Of a DNA stretch of 29,690 bases, positions 3,999-26,175 are shown piece by piece. The position numbers and the translations under genes are program-made. The notes under the pieces were generated by a model. It was not told where the DNA came from, did no database searches, and saw only the letters and a list, made by a program, of their open reading frames with translations. Position 1 is the first letter of the stretch; every line of letters starts with the position of its first letter. The DNA comes from a virus, in the IMG/VR virus record IMGVR_UViG_3300042547_000498, positions 1 through 29,690 of that record; one strand, given 5' to 3'.

Positions 3999-5093
3999 AT
4001 GGACTTCTACGAATCAATGCTTCAAAGCGATCCGTTTCTTACACCGGAAGAGCTTTTGCGACGCCAGGTTGCTGGAAACGCCGCGCCGCGCGTGCTGCCC
4101 AAGGCAACTTCAAAGACCAGTGTTGGCGGCACATTAACGAACAACGTTAAGCCTGGCGATAGCTCAATGCTGCCGCAGACCGCGCGCGGCATGGCTGATT
4201 ATTTCACGCGTATGGGCATTGATGCTTACGCCGCTGAGCCAGACGTGGCGGGCCTGCAGCAGTATGCGAAGCAGCGCTCGCAGGAAGGCGAGAGCGCGAT
4301 GCTCAATGCGCTTGCGGCTAACTATGCCGGCCGTCGCTTTGAGCCTGTGCAGGCGCAATTCCTCAAACGCGCAATGGCTGCGCAGGAGCCGCTCAAAGTG
4401 GGCAACGCGGGCTACATTACGCCGAGCGGCGAGTACGTCAAAGACCCGCAGTATGCAAACGACCAAAAGGCGCAGCGATTCCTGCAGCTTGGGCAGCAAT
4501 ACACCTCAATGGCCGACCGCGAAGATGCGCGCAACGATCAAAATCAGTTGCGACGAGATTTAGCGGCCGGCAGAGATCAAGATCGTGCAGATGCGAGAGG
4601 CTTTGCAAATGCAACAAAGCTGCGCACCGAGCTAAACACTCGCCTTGACAAGGTCGCTGCAGGGACTGGCTTTGCGCAGAACATTTTGGAAATGCTTAGC
4701 GACGAAAGCATTAAAAATGACGCGATAAAGCAAATTTCGCTAATATTCCAATACGGCAAACTTCTCGATCCTGATTCTGTCGTGCGAGAAGCAGAGCAGC
4801 GGCTTATTGCCGAGGCACGAGGCGTTTACGAGTCAGCGCTCAATTTCCCAGAGCGAATTCGCTCGGGCGTTTTGCTGACGCCGGCTCAATTACAAAGCAT
4901 TGGGCAAGTTGCGCAAAACTTGCAGCGAAACTCACAACAGCGCCGCTCAGACGTAGTCGATTATTACCGCGGAATCGCGGAGCGAAACGGAATTTCAGTC
5001 GACGATGTGTTGCCTTACAACTCTACCCCCGCGTCTGGTGGGCGACGAGTTATGCGGTACGAAGATTTGGTGAGAGGCGCTAATGGCAATTGA
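3999..5093 (+). CDS. Probable internal virion / DNA-ejection protein
   Basis: The protein has 364 residues and starts at an ATG preceded by GGAGAGCAGC. It is largely helical by composition. The N-terminal DPFLTPEELLRRQVAG is followed by repeated charged helices between ~95 and 230, including QKAQRFLQLGQQYTSMADREDARNDQNQLRRDLAAGRDQDRADARG, a strongly coiled-coil-like stretch listed here only by region. The C-terminal third has further helices (EAEQRLIAEARGVYESALNFPERI). There is no enzymatic motif. The 3' end overlaps the next gene by 11 bases. Location between an S74-bearing internal protein and a larger hydrophobic protein fits the three-to-four-gene ejectosome block typical of podoviruses, but this is not proven by sequence alone. 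Confidence 0.85.
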   Translation: MDFYESMLQSDPFLTPEELLRRQVAGNAAPRVLPKATSKTSVGGTLTNNVKPGDSSMLPQTARGMADYFTRMGIDAYAAEPDVAGLQQYAKQRSQEGESAMLNALAANYAGRRFEPVQAQFLKRAMAAQEPLKVGNAGYITPSGEYVKDPQYANDQKAQRFLQLGQQYTSMADREDARNDQNQLRRDLAAGRDQDRADARGFANATKLRTELNTRLDKVAAGTGFAQNILEMLSDESIKNDAIKQISLIFQYGKLLDPDSVVREAEQRLIAEARGVYESALNFPERIRSGVLLTPAQLQSIGQVAQNLQRNSQQRRSDVVDYYRGIAERNGISVDDVLPYNSTPASGGRRVMRYEDLVRGANGN

Positions 5094-13993: not shown

Positions 13994-14992
13994 TTAGTGA
14001 AGACGAGACGCTAATCGCTCCGCCGCATGCACCAAATGATCGACCGGCAGATGGACGTAGTTGTCGATCATGGCCGGGGTCTTCCAACCCCCCATGTCCT
14101 GCAACGTTTTCCTATCGACCCCGTCCATCGCCGCCCAGCTCGCGAACGTGTGGCGGATGTCGTGGAAGCGAAACCCAGCCGGCAACCCGGCGCGCTTTGT
14201 GTAACGGTTCCACTGGTGCCAGCACGGCGCCTCGACCGGAAACACGCGCAGCTCACCTTCGATGCGCGGCTGCTGCTCGAGTAGCGCCTTCGCGGCCGAG
14301 TTAATCGGGCAGACGATCAAGTTGCCCGCCTTGGTGTCAATCGGCTGCACCCAGCACACCGAGCGCGCAAGGTCCACTCGATCCCAGGTCAACCCAAACA
14401 CGTTCGACTTGCGAAGGCCCGTCATGAACGCGAAGCCGACCGCAGCGCGTAAGCTCGCCGGCAACACCTCAAGCAGTGCCTTCGCCTGCGCCGGGGTCGC
14501 GATCAGCATCTTGCTCGCATCGCGCTTGCTGCCGTAGGTGCGAAAGGTCGGCACCTGGTCGATCCACTCCCACTCCTTGCACGCAGTCGAGAGCACCGAG
14601 CGCAGCGTGATGACGTAGTTGTTCTTGGTGCCGTTGCTCGCGGGCTTATCTTTGCGCGTGATCAGCCCCTCGATCTGCTCGGCTGCCCAGGCGCGCGTTA
14701 TATCACCGAGTGACATACCTTCAGCGCGTGCGCACCAAAAGGCGAGGTGGTGCGTGTAGTCGCGGATCGCGCCGTCGTCCTGGTGCTCGGCGAGCCAACG
14801 CTCGGCAGCCTCGGTGAGCGAGCGCGGTTGTTTGTCGCCGAGTTTATTTTGGCGCCACAGCTGCGCCTTTAATTGGTCGTGCAGTTCCTGCGCTGCTTTG
14901 CGATCAGCAGTCTGAGCAGACTGCTTGAGTCGCCGCCCGTCGGGGAGCGCGATATCGATGTAGAACGTCTTGCCTCGTTTGAAGATGGACAT
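13994..14992 (-). CDS. int: Tyrosine site-specific integrase
   Basis: The protein has 332 residues. It catalyses integration and excision at attP, which begins just after its stop codon. The catalytic set is visible: R194 in TGLRKSN, K221, H277-x-x-R280 in HDIRHTF, W303 in GGWKT and nucleophile Y312 in DNYVHL. The N-terminal arm-binding region is short (KRGKTFYIDIALPDGRRLKQS, given as residues 5-25), followed by a SAM-like core-binding domain (~57-150). The start at 14992 has AGGAA about 11 bases upstream and lies inside the upstream excisionase-like gene (124-base overlap). Transcription is leftward from the recombination operon or an own promoter. Confidence 0.96.
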   Translation of the reverse strand: MSIFKRGKTFYIDIALPDGRRLKQSAQTADRKAAQELHDQLKAQLWRQNKLGDKQPRSLTEAAERWLAEHQDDGAIRDYTHHLAFWCARAEGMSLGDITRAWAAEQIEGLITRKDKPASNGTKNNYVITLRSVLSTACKEWEWIDQVPTFRTYGSKRDASKMLIATPAQAKALLEVLPASLRAAVGFAFMTGLRKSNVFGLTWDRVDLARSVCWVQPIDTKAGNLIVCPINSAAKALLEQQPRIEGELRVFPVEAPCWHQWNRYTKRAGLPAGFRFHDIRHTFASWAAMDGVDRKTLQDMGGWKTPAMIDNYVHLPVDHLVHAAERLASRLH

Positions 14993-15189
14993 GGTTTGCT
15001 CGGTTCCTGTTTGGTTGCCTGGAGAACCTCCGCGACGTTGACTCGGATCGCCTTGCCAAACCTGTAGGCTGGCACTGCGCGCCTATCGACCATGCGTCGG
15101 AGTGTCTTTACGCTAACACCCAACTGGTCCGCCGCGTCATCAAGTGTGGTTAGCACCTGATGGTGAGATTCTCTCAACACCTCAGTCAT
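14869..15189 (-). CDS. Excisionase/AlpA-like helix-turn-helix protein
   Basis: The protein has 106 residues. Residues ~12-60 (LTTLDDAADQLGVSVKTLRRMVDRRAVPAYRFGKAIRVNVAEVLQ) form a MerR-like winged helix of the excisionase/AlpA type: TLDDAA..LGVS..TLRR, then P..R.GK.IR. The gene sits directly upstream of int, the usual place for a recombination directionality factor. The last ~45 residues overlap the start of int in another frame, are Ser/Arg-rich and look unstructured, so the functional part is probably the first ~65 residues. Its start overlaps the stop of the upstream nuclease gene by 8 bases. It may also regulate early genes. Confidence 0.82.
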   Translation of the reverse strand: MTEVLRESHHQVLTTLDDAADQLGVSVKTLRRMVDRRAVPAYRFGKAIRVNVAEVLQATKQEPSKPCPSSNEARRSTSISRSPTGGDSSSLLRLLIAKQRRNCTTN

Positions 15190-17557: not shown

Positions 17558-18289
17558 TCAGTTTGCTATTGCGGTTTCAAAGGCCTCCCAGGAGAGCGGA
17601 ATGCTGTCCGGCAGGCCATATCGATTCTTTGCCATGTAGGCTGGGCGCTCTGACGTGAAGAGCAAACGCTCACCCGTGGTGATGCCGCGCGAGACGGTTT
17701 TGTTGAACCCAACGTCGTCTTTCTTGATGAGCGTCTTGTAGTTCGCAAACAGCACCGCGTCACACCACTCGCGCACAAGGGCGCTTGAGCGAGCCTGCAG
17801 TTTCGGCTGGTACCGATCGTATGGCTCTGTTTCCGGCGAATCAAAGCGCTTTATCTCGGTGTGTGCGATCAAGATCACACTCATCGAGCGGTCGTTTCGC
17901 AGCGCTGTCAATCCATCCAGTATTTCGCGCCACTTGTCCGCGGCAATCATGGCGCCTTTGCCGTACGCCAAATCCTTTGCGTCGTACCTCGCTTCGATGT
18001 CTCGCCAAATCAGCGTTTCGAGCCAATCGAGCGAGTCGATGACGACCGTCTTAAAACTGTGACCGTCGTCAAACAACGTCGAGATCGCGTCAAGTACATC
18101 GCCGACTTTGGTCGCGATAGGGAAGTGATCTACGGCCAACGAGCCGAGTCCGTCTTCCGTTTGGATAAAGACCGGCTCCGGCGCGCCTGCGGCAAAGGTC
18201 GACTTGCCGATCCCCTCGACGCCATAAATTAGAACGCGAGGAGCCGCAATCGACGTGTTCTTCTTAATACTTTTGAGATCAAACGCCAT
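17558..18289 (-). CDS. Sak4-like RecA-fold ATPase (phage single-strand annealing)
   Basis: The protein has 243 residues. It has a Walker A at 23-31 (GVEGIGKST), a Walker B ending in D85 (KTVVIDSLDW), a sensor-like VILIAHTEIKRF and a later KLQARSSALVREWCDAVLFANY segment. This is the AAA_24/Sak4 pattern of phage ATP-binding recombination proteins. Sak4 proteins bind ssDNA and promote annealing, often with a partner SSB; the DUF669 protein and Cas4-like exonuclease downstream complete such a module. The start overlaps the stop of the accessory gene by 11 bases. The role is inferred from family; the ATPase fold is clear. Confidence 0.9.
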   Translation of the reverse strand: MAFDLKSIKKNTSIAAPRVLIYGVEGIGKSTFAAGAPEPVFIQTEDGLGSLAVDHFPIATKVGDVLDAISTLFDDGHSFKTVVIDSLDWLETLIWRDIEARYDAKDLAYGKGAMIAADKWREILDGLTALRNDRSMSVILIAHTEIKRFDSPETEPYDRYQPKLQARSSALVREWCDAVLFANYKTLIKKDDVGFNKTVSRGITTGERLLFTSERPAYMAKNRYGLPDSIPLSWEAFETAIAN

Positions 18290-18662
18290 GAGCGGGCTCC
18301 TCGATAACTATGTAGGTTTTGGCAGGCTTCACGGTGATTGCCGGGGCGATTTGCCGCCAAAGGTCGGGGCGGTCGGTGCGGATCGCGCGCAAAAATGCCT
18401 CGTCCGCCTCGACTTTGGTTTTAACTGGCTTCTCCGGCCAAGACGCCGTCAGCGCAAGCAGCTTGTCCAGGTCAGCCTTGTACGAGAGCTTGCCGGTGGC
18501 CTTAAAGCGAAAGCCATTGCTGAGCGTGGTTGTGGCGCTGCCTTCCTCTTTGTGCGGCAGCATTTTCAAAAGGTCTTCCTCGATTTCTAGTCGTCTTGTT
18601 ACGGCTTTGAGTTCCTCTTGCTTTGCAAGAAGCCACTCTGCCGCGAGTTTTTCTGCGGTCAT
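18279..18662 (-). CDS. Accessory protein of the Sak4 recombination cluster
   Basis: The frame is open from 18722, but the first codons read as proline-rich leader. I place the start at ATG 18662, which gives 127 residues beginning MTAEKLAAEWLLAKQEELKA. The first ~45 residues form a charged helix, followed by EEGSATTTLSNGFRFKATGKLSYKADLDKL and a C-terminal beta part (APAITVKPAKTYIVIE). Phage genes of this layout (resembling DUF7173) usually precede Sak4-like ATPases; the role is unknown. ATG 18662 lies ~22 bases after the expected start of the candidate promoter at 18691-18719, making this the first gene of the leftward recombination operon. Confidence 0.82.
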   Translation of the reverse strand: MTAEKLAAEWLLAKQEELKAVTRRLEIEEDLLKMLPHKEEGSATTTLSNGFRFKATGKLSYKADLDKLLALTASWPEKPVKTKVEADEAFLRAIRTDRPDLWRQIAPAITVKPAKTYIVIEEPAHGV

Positions 18663-18690
18663 ATTAAGGCCTCGTGGTGGGGGCGGTGGG

Positions 18691-18719
18691 AATGTAACAG
18701 GACAATGCGAATATCTCAA
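18691..18719 (-). promoter_or_regulatory. Candidate sigma-70 promoter of the leftward recombination operon
   Basis: On the minus strand, TTGAGA (18719-18714) and TACATT (18696-18691) are separated by exactly 17 bases, with 5/6 and 4/6 consensus matches. The predicted start is about 22 bases before ATG 18662. It lies in the only gap between the repressor and the recombination genes. Confidence 0.65.
18705..18719. promoter_or_regulatory. Candidate operator O1 overlapping the -35 box
   Basis: ATGCGA-ATA-TCTCAA matches the palindrome ATGCGA-N3-TCGCAT at 10 of 12 arm positions. Its first 11 bases are identical to those of the perfect site at 23531-23545, and its right half is the -35 hexamer of the leftward promoter. 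Binding here would block transcription. Confidence 0.5.
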
Positions 18720-18733
18720 CACCTACGGCAAAG

Positions 18734-18751
18734 GCCCGGATTAGACCGGGC
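18734..18751 (-). terminator. Candidate terminator of the repressor transcript
   Basis: GCCCGG and CCGGGC pair over a 6-base loop that contains the repressor stop codon. On the minus strand the stem is followed by CTTTG, only a weak U tract. It separates the repressor from the promoter of the recombination operon. Confidence 0.45.
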
Positions 18752-19337
18752 GAATCCACATTACCGGGGCCGCGGCGCGCACCGAGACGTTGTTCATCGT
18801 CGGGGAGGGCGTAAACGGCACCAGGTTAAACTTCTCGTCGTCGTAGCCACGCTTCAACGTGCCAATCACATCGCCTTCGCCAGGGATTTCCGCGATACAT
18901 AGCCGATCAATCATCGACTCCACGGCTAGCGTTCGAGCGCCTGCGAATAGCACCCAACCGTCAGTCGTTAGCTCGGAGGATCGAATTTGTACGGCCATGC
19001 CGGTGCCGGGCACGTCGCGCGGAGCAGTCACGCGCCGAGCAGAGCGCGCTGAGATCGCCCGAAGGGTGCTGTGGGCGTCTACCCAGGCCTTGATCGGGAA
19101 GCTACGCGCGTCCTCCTCAATCGGAATACCCGCCTGCGTGAGCACCTCCGTTACCGGCACCATCAGCAAGCCGGAGATACGGTTGGCTTCGTCCGCCGTC
19201 ATCTGGCGCTTGCCGCGTAACATCAAAGAAACCGCGCTCGGGTCAAGCTCGAGCAGTTTGGCTAATCGGCGCATCGACATGTCGCGCTCGGCAAGCCGCT
19301 CGCTGAACCATTTCGTATTCACCTTTTTAACAGCCAT
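18741..19337 (-). CDS. CI-like lysogeny repressor (XRE helix-turn-helix, S24-like C-terminus)
   Basis: The start was set at ATG 19337 (198 residues, MAVKKVNTKWF), since the upstream TTG has no ribosome site. The helix-turn-helix at ~10-60 reads FSERLAERDMSMRRLAKLLELDPSAVSLMLRGKRQMTADEANRISGLL (split here as one domain). The C-terminal half is beta-rich and ends NNVSVRAAAPVMWIRPV, like the LexA/CI dimerisation fold. I see no clear Ser-Met nucleophile motif or paired Lys, so self-cleavage is doubtful. It is divergent from a Cro-like gene, as in lambdoid switches, and would hold early promoters off in the lysogen. Confidence 0.88.
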   Translation of the reverse strand: MAVKKVNTKWFSERLAERDMSMRRLAKLLELDPSAVSLMLRGKRQMTADEANRISGLLMVPVTEVLTQAGIPIEEDARSFPIKAWVDAHSTLRAISARSARRVTAPRDVPGTGMAVQIRSSELTTDGWVLFAGARTLAVESMIDRLCIAEIPGEGDVIGTLKRGYDDEKFNLVPFTPSPTMNNVSVRAAAPVMWIRPV

Positions 19338-19439
19338 GTTTGTCTCGTTCCTCGTTTGCAAAGTTAGTGTGTTGACAATTCCACATCAGTATTGCACCTT
19401 CCGCCACGCCTCGCAATGTAGCAATGAGAAAAACAATTT
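19338..19439. promoter_or_regulatory. Divergent repressor/Cro control region
   Basis: This 102-base A/T-rich gap separates the two divergent regulator genes. It holds a direct repeat GCAATG at 19413-19418 and 19421-19426 (8-base period), ACAATT at 19375-19380 and 19434-19439, and a candidate leftward promoter at 19388-19416. TTGACA at 19372-19377 on the plus strand has no good -10 partner. The operators are not unequivocally identifiable. Confidence 0.6.
19388..19416 (-). promoter_or_regulatory. Candidate repressor promoter (PRM-like)
   Basis: Minus strand TTGCGA (19416-19411) and AATACT (19393-19388), spacing 17 bases, each 4/6 to consensus. The start point would be ~44 bases before the repressor ATG. 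Confidence 0.45.
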
Positions 19440-19670
19440 ATGTCGCAACTATCTCCTGCAAAAGAAGTCGTCGCTAAATTAGGCGGCGTGCGTGCTACCG
19501 CACGCGTCTTGCAACTTAATCCAAGCGCGGTGTCGCGCTGGATGATGCCAGCAGAAAAGCGTGGCACCGGCGGTCATGTGCCACAGCGGCATTGGCCTGC
19601 AATATTAGAACACGCGAAAAAAGAGCGCATAAAGCTGCGATTGAACGACCTCGTCAATCTGCCGAAGTAA
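19440..19670 (+). CDS. Cro-like transcription regulator
   Basis: The protein has 76 residues. The helix-turn-helix at ~6-33 (AKEVVAKLGGVRATARVLQLNPSAVSRWM) is followed by a region GTGGHVPQRHWPAILEHAKKERIKLRLNDL. It resembles the Cro/carph-isopro type, in which GG.IP......L..A......L follows the DNA-reading helix. It is the first gene of the rightward early transcript, upstream of the replication gene, and divergent from the CI-like repressor. The leader GAGAAAAACAATTT gives a weak ribosome site. A perfect 7-bp inverted repeat (GCGTGCG, 6-base loop) lies inside it at 19486-19505. Confidence 0.87.
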   Translation: MSQLSPAKEVVAKLGGVRATARVLQLNPSAVSRWMMPAEKRGTGGHVPQRHWPAILEHAKKERIKLRLNDLVNLPK

Positions 19671-19686: not shown

Positions 19687-21699
19687 ATGGTCAGCAACTC
19701 AGAATTCTTAGACGCTGTGTATGGCGAATTAGGTGCCGGAATACACGGCTGGATTGCATGCTTTCGTGGTGATCCAAATGCGGTCGCGGCGGATGCGTGG
19801 GCGGGGCAGCCGTGGCTTGCGACGGCCAACCAGCGGATACTTATCGACAAACGATGTGACGATAACAACTACTACGCGGTCGCGCGCCTGGCGATGGGAG
19901 ACGGGAAGCCGCGGCGCTCAAAGAATAACTTTAACTCGCTCGCGGTTCTGGTCGCGGACGACGCGGACCCCAACGAACTAAACGGCACGCCAAGCTTTGT
20001 CATCGAGACATCGCCTGGTAACTACCAAATCGGCGTGCTGCTCGACGAAACAGATTCCGCGACACGGAACGCGAAGCTGATCGATGCCGTTATGCAGGCG
20101 ATGGCGGATGCGCGCCTGATTCGCGCCGACAGCTCGGGGAATAACGCGGTGCGGTACTGCCGGCTGCCGGTCGGTACGAACGGCAAGGCCGGTCGCAACG
20201 AAGCGGTGCGCTTAGCGCAGTGGAACCCAAACGCGCGCTACACGCTCGAGGATGCGCTTGCGGTGTTTGGGCTTGACCTGGATGCGGTGCAAGCTCGCGT
20301 ACCGGCGGTTGCCTCGCGTGCGTCGGACACGCCAAGCGATGCGGAGAATGGCGCGCTTATTCAACGCATCCTAAGCGGCGAGAGCTACCACGACCCGCTC
20401 GTTAAGCTCTCGGCGAAGCTTGTCGCCTCCGGCGCGAGCGGCGGTGCGGTGGTCAATTTGCTGCGGGGCGTCATGGACGCAGCACGCCCAGGCTCACCGA
20501 GTGAGCTCGAGCGGTGGCAGTCGCGTTACAACGAGATACCGCGCATGGTGCAGGGCGCCGAGCGGTTCCGGCCAGAAGCTTTGCCCGCGGTCACGATCAA
20601 TCTCGGCCGCAAGCCGGAGCCGGCGAGCAGTGAGCTTTCACCAATGGACTGGGGCCAGCTTGCCGGCACAACGCCAGAGCCTGCGACGTTTCGCTGGGCT
20701 GGGTGGTTGCCTGCGCGCACGACGACGCTGCTGAGTGCGAACGGCGGTGTCGGTAAATCCAATCTCAGCCTGCAGCTCGCGGCGGCGCTCGCGCTCGGCG
20801 GGCGGTTCCTGGGACACGAGCTCGAGCCGGCGAGGGTGCTCGTCATCAGCGCTGAGGATGAGGCGCGCACGGTGCACTTTCGTTTAGCGAACATTGTCAA
20901 AGATATGGGCGTGCCGTTGTCAGCCCTCGGTGATCGCCTGATTGCGTACGATCTGACGCAGGTCGATTGCGTGATGTGGCGTGACGGCGCGCCGACTGCG
21001 CGCATGCAGTGGCTTGCGGACATGGTCGAGCAGCACCAGGCGCAGGTTCTGGTTATCGATAACAGCTCGGATGTGTTCAACGCCAACGAAAACGATCGAG
21101 CCGAGGTGCGTGGCTTTATGCGCGCGCTGAACTCGATCGCGCATCACTCAGGCGCGGCGATCTTGCTGCTCGCTCACGTCGACAAGGCGAGCGTGCGTAT
21201 GGGCGCGGGTAAAGACACCAACAGCACGTTCTCAGGATCGACGGCCTGGAACAACTCCGCTCGCTCCCGCTGGGCGATGACGCGCGACACTGATCGATTG
21301 GTGACGCTGTGCCACGAGAAGTGCAACCTGGGACCACTACAGGAAGAGATTCAGCTCGAGTTCGATCAGGCGGCCAAAGTATTCCGACAATTCGGCACTG
21401 TGCCCGGCTCTATTTCGGATAGCATGTTGCGAAATTCGCAGCGCGTCACGATTCTCAAACTAGTCGCGAGCGCGATCCGCGCAGGGCAGAAGCTCAGCCT
21501 GGCGGCGACGGCCAACAATAACGCCTACAAGGTGCTTGCTGGTAGTAAGGCATTCCCGCGCATTGCTCGAGGTGAGTTCTTCAGCATCCTCTACGACATG
21601 CAGCGCGAGGGGCTGATTGTCGAGCAGGAGTACGAGGCGAACCGAAAGAAGTACAAGGCGCTCGCGCTGAGCGCCGCAGGAGAGGAGGTGACGCTGTAG
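19687..21699 (+). CDS. Replication protein: RepB-like primase fused to RepA/DnaB-like helicase
   Basis: The protein has 670 residues. Residues ~15-180 look like an archaeo-eukaryotic-type primase: LAVLVADDAD (D91, D92, D94) as the metal site, FVIETSPGNYQIGVLL, and NNAVRYCRLPVGTNGKAG as the nucleotide-binding R..RLP.G.N.K motif. Residues ~330-560 are a RecA-fold helicase with Walker A ANGGVGKSN (351-359), SAEDEARTV, Walker B VLVIDN (454-459) and ILLLAHVDKASV. The C-terminal ~90 residues resemble a winged helix (LSLAATANNNAYKVL...FFSILYDMQREGLIV). It would prime and unwind phage DNA in one chain. The ribosome site is poor (GGGGGCGGC). Confidence 0.92.
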   Translation: MVSNSEFLDAVYGELGAGIHGWIACFRGDPNAVAADAWAGQPWLATANQRILIDKRCDDNNYYAVARLAMGDGKPRRSKNNFNSLAVLVADDADPNELNGTPSFVIETSPGNYQIGVLLDETDSATRNAKLIDAVMQAMADARLIRADSSGNNAVRYCRLPVGTNGKAGRNEAVRLAQWNPNARYTLEDALAVFGLDLDAVQARVPAVASRASDTPSDAENGALIQRILSGESYHDPLVKLSAKLVASGASGGAVVNLLRGVMDAARPGSPSELERWQSRYNEIPRMVQGAERFRPEALPAVTINLGRKPEPASSELSPMDWGQLAGTTPEPATFRWAGWLPARTTTLLSANGGVGKSNLSLQLAAALALGGRFLGHELEPARVLVISAEDEARTVHFRLANIVKDMGVPLSALGDRLIAYDLTQVDCVMWRDGAPTARMQWLADMVEQHQAQVLVIDNSSDVFNANENDRAEVRGFMRALNSIAHHSGAAILLLAHVDKASVRMGAGKDTNSTFSGSTAWNNSARSRWAMTRDTDRLVTLCHEKCNLGPLQEEIQLEFDQAAKVFRQFGTVPGSISDSMLRNSQRVTILKLVASAIRAGQKLSLAATANNNAYKVLAGSKAFPRIARGEFFSILYDMQREGLIVEQEYEANRKKYKALALSAAGEEVTL

Positions 21700-23079: not shown

Positions 23080-23326
23080 GTTTGTAGCCCCACTTTACGG
23101 GCGGCTGGTTTTGGTGCAGCACCCAGTTCGAGCCCAGCCGGCGCAGTGCGTCGCGGCGCTTCGCCTGTAGCTTGCGCAGCTGCTCGCGGTCGGGCTCGTA
23201 GCGTCCGCCGGTGCGCGGCGCTGCCTGGCGCCAGAACACGTCGTAAAAGAACCAAACGAGCAGCACAGTCGACGAGACCGCGGAGGCGATCAGGGCGGCG
23301 ACGTAAAACGATTCCCAGAAGCTCAT
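23072..23326 (-). CDS. Single-span membrane protein (84 aa), early operon
   Basis: The ribosome site GAGGG overlaps the stop of the upstream gene. Residues ~7-30 (FYVAALIASAVSSTVLLVWFFYDV) form one membrane segment. They are followed by a strongly basic cytosolic tail with charged helix (EPDREQLRKLQAKRRDALRRLGSNW) and a polar end. Inner-membrane anchoring with a basic cytosolic domain is likely. Exclusion or membrane-tethering roles are possible but not shown. Confidence 0.83.
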   Translation of the reverse strand: MSFWESFYVAALIASAVSSTVLLVWFFYDVFWRQAAPRTGGRYEPDREQLRKLQAKRRDALRRLGSNWVLHQNQPPVKWGYKHD

Positions 23327-23336
23327 AGCAAAGCCC

Positions 23337-23525
23337 TCAGTAGTTGCACTTCAGCTCGGCCACCATCGACTCGAGCGTTTTGATGCGCGCCTCGAGCAGC
23401 TCGATGACGCGTTGTTGGTTGTCGATCAGCCGGGCCTGGACGACAGCGAGCGTGTCTGCGCGCTCGACCGCTTCGCGCAGTGCCGCGACCTTGGCAGGGT
23501 GTGGGGTATTGATGTGCTCGCTCAT
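23337..23525 (-). CDS. Small coiled-coil protein (62 aa), early operon
   Basis: The frame is open much further upstream, but ATG 23525 is the first start after the operator at 23531-23545 and the end of the previous gene. The chain from ~10 is helical (AKVAALREAVERADTLAVVQARLIDNQQRVIELLEARIKTLESMVAEL), a heptad-rich coiled coil. There is no ribosome site in front. A candidate promoter (-35 TTGCTT, -10 GATATT) would start the transcript only ~4 bases before the ATG, so a leaderless message is possible. Confidence 0.8.
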   Translation of the reverse strand: MSEHINTPHPAKVAALREAVERADTLAVVQARLIDNQQRVIELLEARIKTLESMVAELKCNY

Positions 23526-23530
23526 ACGCC

Positions 23531-23545
23531 ATGCGAATATCGCAT
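23531..23545. promoter_or_regulatory. Candidate operator O2, perfect palindrome
   Basis: ATGCGA-ATA-TCGCAT is a perfect 6-bp-arm palindrome. It lies between two early leftward genes and covers the -10 box of the candidate promoter for the 62-residue protein. Confidence 0.55.
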
Positions 23546-23745
23546 CAGTCAGTGTAAAAGCAAACATGCACGGTGTTTCCCAGGTAACGCTGCACGCGTG
23601 TGCCAAACGAGTCGTGGTCGATCCCAGCGCGCTCGATGTACTCAACAAGCTCGCGGTCGGTCACGTCATCGGCGTGTACACACAGCGTGTGTACGTTCTT
23701 GCCGTAGCGCGACTCTCGCGAGCGGTATTCGATGCGTGTGTCCAT
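23545..23745 (-). CDS. First gene of the leftward early operon (66 aa, unknown)
   Basis: ATG 23745 is the first plausible start after the O3 control region; the longer frame from 23853 would run through the operators. The mixed sequence has Arg-rich N-terminal (DTRIEYRSRESRYGKNVH), TLCVHADDVTDRELVEYIERAGIDHDSF in the middle and strands at the end (TRVQRYLGNTVHVCFYTD). It looks like a small alpha/beta fold. The ribosome site is weak (GATGATCCGCTT). No family recognised. Confidence 0.75.
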   Translation of the reverse strand: MDTRIEYRSRESRYGKNVHTLCVHADDVTDRELVEYIERAGIDHDSFGTRVQRYLGNTVHVCFYTD

Positions 23746-23779
23746 AAGCGGATCATCGCGCGGTCGCAATCGCCACGCA

Positions 23780-23794
23780 ATGCGATAATCGCAA
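23780..23794. promoter_or_regulatory. Candidate operator O3
   Basis: ATGCGA-TAA-TCGCAA matches the O2 palindrome at 11 of 12 arm positions. The inner 13 bases (TGCGAT-A-ATCGCA) are themselves a perfect palindrome. It lies 35 bases before the first leftward early gene. Confidence 0.55.
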
Positions 23795-23798
23795 CACG

Positions 23799-23811
23799 TC
23801 CACAATGTGGA
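23799..23811. promoter_or_regulatory. Second palindrome in the early control region
   Basis: TCCACA-A-TGTGGA is a perfect 6-bp-arm palindrome 5 bases from O3. The sequence differs from the ATGCGA sites, so another regulator may bind here. Confidence 0.5.
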
Positions 23812-24059
23812 TGGTGGCGGTTTGGGGGTCGTTGCGCTCGCTGTCGTGCGCATGCGGCCGCTATAGCGAGCGCAGGCAGTCGCAGCAGGGCGGGGATGGC
23901 ATGGCCCGCGCGTCTAGCGCGGGGCCATCCCCCTGCGAGGGGAGTCGAAAATGGCCGTTTTGGGGTGCGCGCGCTCGCATCTAGTAGGGGTGTGGGGAGC
24001 AGGAGCAAACTTTGTTGCAGCACGCGGCGTGGTAGGTTGCGGGGCAAAGGAGGTGCTCG
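23812..24059. other. Structured intergenic region between divergent operons
   Basis: No gene is seen in this stretch. It holds a perfect 10-bp inverted repeat (TGCGCTCGCT at 23833-23842 and AGCGAGCGCA at 23865-23874, 22-base loop). A second strong imperfect hairpin spans 23892-23932, with GGGGATGGC pairing GCCATCCCC and CCCGCGC pairing GCGCGGG, with a 4-base bulge. Next comes CCCC-TGCGA-GGGG (23930-23942), whose first arm competes with the preceding stem. It is a candidate packaging site, control RNA or terminator region upstream of the terminase genes. Confidence 0.6.
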
Positions 24060-24203
24060 ATGGATGAACAAGACAAAGAGATTTGGGCTTGGACGACTGG
24101 CCTGGTTGGCGTGATCGGGCTCGGCGTGCCGGCGCTTGGGTTTGTGGCGTATTGGCTTGTGGCGCTGTTTAAGTTGGGTTGGCAATTTGCGGCGGGGCTG
24201 TAG
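24060..24203 (+). CDS. Small membrane protein (47 aa) before the terminase genes
   Basis: An excellent ribosome site (AAAGGAGGTG, then 6 bases) precedes ATG 24060. The acidic N-terminus (MDEQDKEIWAW) is followed by a long hydrophobic region (~13-38, GLVGVIGLGVPALGFVAYWL, VALF) that could span the membrane once or as a hairpin, then an aromatic tail (GWQFAAGL). It is the first rightward gene after the structured region. No family is recognised; a holin-like or exclusion role is conceivable but not shown. Confidence 0.75.
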   Translation: MDEQDKEIWAWTTGLVGVIGLGVPALGFVAYWLVALFKLGWQFAAGL

Positions 24204-24221
24204 CGCGCTGTTGCGAATAGA

Positions 24222-24233
24222 CCACCGCGGTGG
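24222..24233. repeat. Perfect 12-bp palindrome before the small terminase
   Basis: CCACCGCGGTGG is a perfect palindrome 14 bases before ATG 24248. Palindromes in this place can be terminase binding or cleavage elements; alternatively it folds over the leader. Confidence 0.6.
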
Positions 24234-24247
24234 CAGACTCGCACCGC

Positions 24248-24787
24248 ATGAGCGCGGTCGAGACAACTGTTTCAGATACGGTCGATAAACGACCGCAGAC
24301 AGCGCCTGAGCCGCCCAAGAGGATTCGGGTGGGTACGGGCATGCCCGGCCCAGGTCGCCCCAAAGGGTCGCAGGATCGCATCACGCGCACGATCAAGGAC
24401 GCTATCGAGATTGCCGCGAAGGAGTGCCACCCGCAGGGCCTGGCAGGGTGGCTGCTCGAGCGGGCGCAGGGCGGCGTTGAGGATCGGAAGATATTCGCCG
24501 GCATGGTCGCCAAGGTGATCCCGGCACAGCTCCAGGCGTCTGTGCAGGGTGGCATCGTGGTGCAGCTGCCCTGGCTACAAGGGCGCAATGTTGGGGGTCA
24601 CGTCCCATCTACGTCCCATTCGCAAGCTATCGATGCGCAAGTCATTGATATCACTGTGGAAAAGGGTGGAAACCTTCGGGTTGCAGACCCGAGGCCAGCC
24701 CTCGAGGCGCCTGCGACCGGGCTGAATGCGAACCATTCGCACCCCCATCCCCCCATCGAACGGCAGGCGGGGGGTGGCGAGGAGTAG
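24248..24787 (+). CDS. Probable small terminase subunit
   Basis: The protein has 179 residues from ATG 24248; a GTG at 24230 in the same frame lies inside a palindrome and is less likely. The core GMPGPGRPKGSQDRITRTIKDAIEIAAKECHPQGLAGWLLERAQGGVEDRKIFAGMVAKVIPAQLQ (region ~30-98) follows the pattern GRPKGS.....R.....I..AA.......L..........FA....KV.P.Q of proteins encoded just before phage large terminases. A basic N-terminal segment may read DNA. The C-terminal ~65 residues are low-complexity, His/Pro-rich. It would recognise the packaging site and load the large subunit. Assignment is by pattern and position. Confidence 0.78.
   Translation: MSAVETTVSDTVDKRPQTAPEPPKRIRVGTGMPGPGRPKGSQDRITRTIKDAIEIAAKECHPQGLAGWLLERAQGGVEDRKIFAGMVAKVIPAQLQASVQGGIVVQLPWLQGRNVGGHVPSTSHSQAIDAQVIDITVEKGGNLRVADPRPALEAPATGLNANHSHPHPPIERQAGGGEE
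24598..24618 (-). repeat. Inverted near-copy of the attP arm repeat
   Basis: On the minus strand this reads TGGGACGTAG then A then TGGGACGTGA, 19 of 21 bases identical to the arm sites at 13757 and 13953. It lies inside the small terminase coding region (codons for GHVPSTS). Confidence 0.65.
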
Positions 24788-24837: not shown

Positions 24838-26175
24838 ATGGACATCAACACCTACGCCCCGCGCTCCGTCTTTACCCCGCTGCACAACCGCCGCGCTCGC
24901 TGGGCGGTCGTCGTCGCTCACCGCCGCGCCGGCAAGACGGTCGCCATGTGCGCCGACCTCGTGATCAGCGCGCTCGAGTGCAAGCACCCGAAGCCCCAGG
25001 TGGTGTACCTGGCGCCGTTTCGCGAGCAGGCGAAGAAGGTCGCCTGGGCGTACCTCAAGGACTTGACCAAGCCGCTCTGGGCCAAGCCGCCCAACGAGAG
25101 CGAGCTCAAGATCACGATTTACAACGGCAGGCCGGACGACTACTCGACCATCTACGTCGGCGGCGCTGACAACCCAGACGCGATGCGCGGCATATACGTC
25201 GACGCGTGCGTGCTTGACGAGGTCGGGCAGATGCGTCCGAGCACCTGGTACTCCGTATTGAGACCGGCTCTCAGTGATCGCGGCGGGTCGGCGATATTCG
25301 CCGGAACTCCGGCTGGCAAGAATTTCTTCTGGCAGATGCGCGAAGAGGCGCGTCTGAACCCTGGCACGCACCTGCTGCTTGAGTTGCCCGCGAGCAAGAC
25401 CGGCATTCTCCCCGAGGAGGAGCTGCGCGACGCAAAGGCGCAGATGACCGAGGAGACGTACGCGGTCGAGTACGAGGTTTCCTTCGACGCGGCCGTACCG
25501 GGCGCGTACTACGCCAAGCAGATTGGAGAGCTGTATGAGAAAAATCGGATTGGTAGTTATCCCGTTGACGCAGAAAATCCGGTCGATCTGGTCGCGGATT
25601 TGGGTTACACGGACAGTTGCTCTTGGTGGGGATGGCAAACCACCCCAGACGGATACCGCATCGTCGACTTCTACGAAGCCGACGGGCAAGCAATCGGTCA
25701 CTACATCGACTGGGTCAAAACCCGGCCGTACAAGGTCGGGCAAGTCTTCCTCCCGCACGACGCGCGCGCGAAAAGTCTCCAAACGGGCAAGTCGATCATC
25801 GAGCAGTTCTTAGGCGCCGGCATCACGCCGCGCCTGGTGCCGGAGATGTCGCTGCAGGATGGCATCGAGGCCTCGCGTATTGTGCTGCCGAAGTGCTACT
25901 TCGACGAGAAAGCGACGTACGAGGGGCTCGAGCACCTGCGCGCGTATATGCGCGAGTGGGACGAGCGCACGCAGACGTACCGCAACCGACCCAAGCACGA
26001 CCAGCACTCGCACGCCTCAGACGCGTTTAGATACCTGGCGCTCGCCGCGAAACCGATTTCTGGTAAATTGTCAAGTGCTGATGCTAAAATCGCCACGCGT
26101 AGTGGAAGCTCTTACGCGTTTTCACTGGATGACGTATGGGATTGTCGACCTAAAACCACACGGCGGATCGGGTAA
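24838..26175 (+). CDS. terL: Terminase large subunit (packaging ATPase and nuclease)
   Basis: The protein has 445 residues. It pumps DNA into the prohead through the portal and cuts it. The ATPase has a classical Walker A at 27-34 (AHRRAGKT), Walker B at D127-E128 (VLDEVGQM) and coupling motif GTP at 156-158 (FAGTPAGKNFF). The RNase H-like nuclease has D254 in VADLGYTD, D308 in FLPHDAR and D395 in HASDAFRYLAL. Length is usual for podovirus-type TerL. The ribosome site is weak (TTGAGAAAAA). The stop is followed at once by the portal start. Confidence 0.97.
   Translation: MDINTYAPRSVFTPLHNRRARWAVVVAHRRAGKTVAMCADLVISALECKHPKPQVVYLAPFREQAKKVAWAYLKDLTKPLWAKPPNESELKITIYNGRPDDYSTIYVGGADNPDAMRGIYVDACVLDEVGQMRPSTWYSVLRPALSDRGGSAIFAGTPAGKNFFWQMREEARLNPGTHLLLELPASKTGILPEEELRDAKAQMTEETYAVEYEVSFDAAVPGAYYAKQIGELYEKNRIGSYPVDAENPVDLVADLGYTDSCSWWGWQTTPDGYRIVDFYEADGQAIGHYIDWVKTRPYKVGQVFLPHDARAKSLQTGKSIIEQFLGAGITPRLVPEMSLQDGIEASRIVLPKCYFDEKATYEGLEHLRAYMREWDERTQTYRNRPKHDQHSHASDAFRYLALAAKPISGKLSSADAKIATRSGSSYAFSLDDVWDCRPKTTRRIG

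Follow-up and report, generated by a model that had tools for sequence, protein, structure and literature searches.

Near-identical palindromes were found repeated above chance at early control points, both in the window, i.e. the whole stretch of DNA that was analysed (a 29,690-base IMG/VR virus record), and in its relatives, and the operator set of the window was confirmed to be real and conserved. The sites are very probably shared CI/Cro operators of the phage's own lysogeny switch, some located at promoters and others stoperator-like. Operators of this kind, forming a CI/Cro switch set, are already known; the members are new. An operator word is thereby provided for a group of uncultivated phages and linked to a repressor family with members in cultured Burkholderia, Erwinia, Klebsiella and Pseudomonas phages. 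With this word, immunity groups may become predictable from sequence, and the natural loss of the repressor in some relatives makes it possible to ask what role Cro has without CI.

Gene organization of the window

The leftward block comprises integrase, xis, nuclease, Cas4-like, Sak4-like and DUF7173 genes, next to which lies the gene of a CI-like repressor. This is followed by a rightward Cro-like gene with primase/helicase, a leftward group of small genes, and finally the terminase and structural genes, which point rightward. The genes relevant to the analysis are the following:

14869..15189, minus strand: xis, excisionase-like HTH_17 protein
17558..18289, minus strand: Sak4-like ssDNA annealing ATPase
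18279..18662, minus strand: DUF7173 / phrog_2480 gene, gene 1 of the PL operon
18741..19337, minus strand: CI-like repressor, XRE-type HTH, recognition helix LDPSAVSLMLRG
19440..19670, plus strand: Cro-like protein, P22_Cro family by weak profile match
23337..23525, minus strand: 62-aa coiled-coil-like protein, gene past site 1
23545..23745, minus strand: 66-aa protein, function not assigned, first gene past site 2

No close relative was found among named phages, the best identities being 49% for Sak4, 38% for Cro and 35% for the repressor. Repressor and Cro were both recognised as HTH proteins. The model of the Cro-like protein resembles Xfaso 1, N15 and P22 Cro, its closest folds; in the repressor model, the C-terminal half is of low confidence (block pLDDT about 45–72).

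Putative operator sites and their enrichment

Sites are named below after the first position of their core; mismatches refer to the strict 6-3-6 word.

15161..15179 (core 15163–15177), minus strand: putative operator site at the xis start, GTGAGATTCTCTCAA
18691..18719, minus strand: PL-like sigma-70 promoter TTGAGA-17-TACATT, with a matching region in relatives
18703..18721 (core 18705–18719), minus strand: putative PL-like operator, ATGCGAATATCTCAA, 2 mismatches
19370..19388 (core 19372–19386), plus strand: putative degenerate operator in the repressor–Cro gap, TGTTGACA-ATT-CCACATCA, overlapping a TTGACA −35 box
21425..21443 (core 21427–21441), plus strand: putative operator site in the primase/helicase ORF, TTGCGAAATTCGCAG, left half conserved at the codon level
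23529..23547 (core 23531–23545), minus strand: putative operator site 1, ATGCGAATATCGCAT, perfect 6-3-6 palindrome, 0 mismatches
23778..23796 (core 23780–23794), minus strand: putative operator site 2, ATGCGATAATCGCAA, 1 mismatch
24209..24216, plus strand: half-site TGTTGCGA before the small terminase gene

Three of these, 23531, 23780 and 18705, had been listed in an earlier note on this DNA, and their positions and mismatch numbers (0, 1 and 2) were reproduced exactly. Each lies in a short gap before a leftward gene, also as described there. Site 23531 occupies the 19 bp that separate the stop of the 66-aa gene from the 62-aa gene with its ATG at 23525; 23780 precedes the 66-aa gene, whose ATG at 23745 is 34 bp away, and so stands first in the leftward small-gene operon; 18705 lies 42 bp before the ATG at 18662.

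The strict word was present in the window more often than in shuffled sequences in its 0- and 1-mismatch classes (0.02 and 0.2 copies expected); with 2 mismatches, 2 copies were observed against 2.2 expected, i.e. without excess, and the 18705 copy is therefore significant only through its conservation in relatives. For the degenerate word WTGMGANNNTCKCAW, three perfect and two one-mismatch copies were counted in the window (0.05 and 1.2 expected). The same word at ≤1 mismatch gave about 81 matches in 23 related records compared with 2 for the reversed control pattern, these records sharing descent, so that the counts lack statistical independence. A matrix derived from relatives alone, with the window and its closest kin excluded, yielded five strong sites in the window (0.0 expected in first-order Markov sequence). 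The motif scan thus recovered the three sites of the earlier note and added two that it had missed, 15163 at the xis start and 21427 inside the primase gene. A weak motif copy at 26079–26097 (matrix rank 6) was also seen near the 3′ end of terL; similar copies at about the equivalent place occur in G006 and G021 and possibly reflect coding conservation only.

Searches with DUF7173, the Cro-like protein and the repressor returned about 60 loci each. The motif recurs in the relatives at PL, at the xis start, in the primase gene, in the small-gene operon and before terS; fuller copies of the 24209 half-site stand at the equivalent place in G001, G002 and G009. As positions ±8 and ±9 were likewise conserved, even though they had not been used in picking the sites, the operator was refined to YGTTGMGA-N3-TCKCAACR, a 19-bp 8-3-8 palindrome. 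Beyond the end of the window, a further conserved late-region site, TGTTGAGA-TTA-TAGCAACA, was observed directly before an ATG (G001:34597, G002:5976, G005:8348, G009:15979).

Conservation of the individual sites

The proposal that the sites serve one system linking the recombination and small-gene operons held up; relatives keep the whole set at syntenic positions. The emphasis given to 23531 had to be inverted. Its left half and the adjoining TATTC are kept in six close relatives, while its right arm reads GCAT, GCAC, TCAA, GGTA (twice) and GTGA and is broken in three of the six; 23780 and 18705, in contrast, are largely conserved in close relatives, and both arms of 23780 are retained by nearly all relatives, including the repressor-less G006. 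The best palindrome of the window is yet its least conserved site and is partly local.

Nearly all close relatives that carry xis have the site at its start, in several of them as a perfect TTGMGAGAATCTCAA. This site lies in coding sequence, and some of its DNA conservation could stem from conservation of the protein. Within the primase site, a single non-preferred codon, TTG, is invariant among 82 conserved Leu/Arg/Ser columns, and the codon CGA is retained in most sequences, which suggests a functional left half-site whose codons are maintained in spite of codon bias. The earlier note had named numerous copies of equal quality within genes as evidence against operators; this applies in part, as two of the five strong sites are intragenic, but the primase codons suggest function and not a refutation.

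Promoters and proposed action

TTGAGA-17-TACATT, running from 18719 to 18691, was the only sigma-70-like site within 18600–19480, and its −35 box is covered by site 18705, as the earlier note had recognised; the site thus overlaps an early promoter, that of the DUF7173/Sak4 recombination operon. Upstream of DUF7173, most loci share this promoter, with the −35 box within the site (GTGTTGMG...TTCKCAT...) and the −10 box 17 bp on. Among 41 distinct repressor loci, the best motif match at PL had a median of 1 mismatch (control: 4). A promoter search of 23300–24300 gave no recognisable promoter, hence none at 23531 or 23780; both occupy short operon gaps devoid of promoter-like sequence, as L5-type stoperators do, and 23531, if bound, would be stoperator-like.

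We infer the identity of the binding protein and the effect on transcription as follows. The 19-bp palindrome would be bound by an HTH protein in dimeric form, namely the CI-like repressor and probably the Cro-like protein too. Binding at 18705 would cover the −35 box and switch off the leftward recombination operon, and binding at 19372 would act on the repressor–Cro gap, while binding at 23780, 23531, the xis start and the primase gene, all lacking an evident promoter, would impede initiation or elongation much as stoperators do.

The binding protein

The earlier note had found no good copy between repressor and Cro and had raised the possibility of a regulator other than the CI-like protein. 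The first statement stands for the strict word, but a degenerate copy in the same register, weak in the window (matrix rank 11), is present at 19372–19386. The second statement finds no support in the relatives: among 41 distinct ones, the best motif match in the repressor–Cro gap had a median of 2 mismatches (control: 4), several relatives have cleaner outer arms TGTTG...CAACA, and most of the more distant loci (35–41% repressor identity) have gap copies with 0–1 mismatch (TTGCGATTGACTCAA, TTGAGAATATCGCAA), the others having 2. The missing good copy in the window appears to result from local decay. In addition, the recognition helix of the repressor (LDPxAVSLMLRG) is nearly invariant, like the operator. 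When viral contigs were searched blindly with the 16-letter operator TGTTGCGANNNTCGCAACA, 24 stretches (L217–L240) were returned. One of them, L234, codes for a homologue of the repressor (E 1e-28) and has several further sites next to it; L234 is the only one with a repressor of the family, and many of the others may be chance matches or belong to other systems.

That the Cro-like protein alone uses the sites, with the CI-like repressor acting elsewhere, is considered unlikely, although this reading draws on the relatives in which the repressor is missing (G006, G021) or broken or scarred, the Cro-like gene being present in all relatives examined. At its small-gene operon, G006 has a perfect site GCGTTGCGA-TTG-TCGCAACGC, and two sites of G021 exceed the control. 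Since both retain Cro and sites with no repressor homologue, they count against CI acting alone. Against Cro acting alone, the recognition helix of the repressor is conserved no less than the Cro helix, and in the 35–41% clade the latter is changed to LDKSTLSRW with the operator unchanged, an indication in favour of the repressor in that clade. In the window's own clade, most Cro-like proteins begin their recognition helix with PSAVS, as the repressor does. Sharing of the sites by repressor and Cro, as in lambda, would fit these observations best.

A host regulator recruited by the phage would also account for sites kept in repressor-less relatives; such a regulator is nevertheless very unlikely, because the copies concentrate around the phage switch and follow the repressor family to identities as low as 35% and across to other phage groups. 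A search of 84,980 species genomes with the Cro-like alignment gave a single match, a contig of a metagenome-assembled genome (L168 8001–8135, Porticoccaceae), on whose end 45 residues of a Cro-like protein directly follow a bacterial gene. It was rejected as host evidence, as a chimeric assembly is probable and the genome of L168 has no perfect operator copy. Even less probable are RNA hairpins or coding coincidences in place of DNA operators: 23531 does overlap a stop codon and a translation start region, and two strong sites lie in ORFs, but conserved copies sit on a −35 box or in gaps and keep the same letters in both arms rather than free base pairing, and the primase TTG codon is kept in spite of codon bias. 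The excisionase-like protein (phrog_66 type), one of the binders envisaged in the earlier note, was rejected as the common binder and has next to no probability left. Xis proteins usually bind asymmetric direct repeats; despite the site at the xis start in nearly all xis-bearing close relatives, the presence of sites is not tied to the xis gene, as G006 and L196–L210 keep sites with no detectable xis homologue.

Relatives that lost the repressor

The repressor is missing, truncated or scarred in L047–L051, L054, L016/G021, L044/G006, L034 and L100, scars or fragments of the gene being found in L047–L051 and others; the Cro-like gene and the promoters stay. In G006, neither a repressor nor an int or xis homologue was detected, while some repressor-deficient relatives still have integrase and xis. 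A more distant repressor-less clade (L124–L130, G019, G022) has GTGTTGCGTTTGCAGAAACAC in common in the Cro-side promoter region, in the same 19-bp frame as the operator and with different inner letters; a change of operator specificity is possible in this clade. A broader picture is offered tentatively, and we regard it as less likely than not: an uncultivated temperate phage family might run its genome from a few scattered palindromic operators, among them a codon-kept one in primase and another at the xis start, and its members might repeatedly delete the CI-like repressor, leaving the Cro-like protein as sole regulator of the same operators.

Comparison with known systems

In lambda, CI and Cro bind palindromic sites of OL and OR over the early promoters that flank the divergent repressor/Cro pair. 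The window likewise has palindromes at early promoters beside divergent repressor and Cro genes, and both proteins are likely to share the sites. It differs in having single sites instead of triplets, a weak repressor–Cro gap copy in its clade, and extra sites in the small-gene operon, xis and primase.

The mycobacteriophages L5 and D29 combine an operator over Pleft with related sites in short intergenic gaps (PMC5712189, PMC9283540), and D29, a natural repressor-deleted relative of L5, retains its stoperator sites (PMC5712189). A Pleft-type operator with gap sites, and repressor-deleted relatives keeping sites, are found here as well. The L5 sites are 13-bp, asymmetric, oriented and monomer-bound, at about 24 per genome (PMC5712189, PMC9283540), whereas the present palindromes span 19 bp, number about five to seven per genome and do not follow a 13-bp asymmetric pattern in one orientation. 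Literature on the conserved inverted repeats of phiC31 yielded nothing useful for comparison.

For TP901-1, the CI operators OR, OL and OD place the repressor at the two switch promoters plus one more site (PMC7250872), an arrangement resembling the one proposed here. TP901-1 differs in being a Gram-positive phage with the antirepressor MOR, and the switch proteins are unrelated as far as known.

Bcep22-like phages and Pseudomonas phage Itty13 share a homologous repressor (28–35% identity) followed by a leftward-type operon. No operator work was found in a paper on Bcep22-like phages (PMC9144972). In Itty13 (L170, about 4573–4704), a palindrome TGTTTGCAAAACGCAAACA lies downstream of the homologous repressor in the PL position and has the 8-3-8 frame; the half-site is TGTTTGC as opposed to TGTTGMG here.
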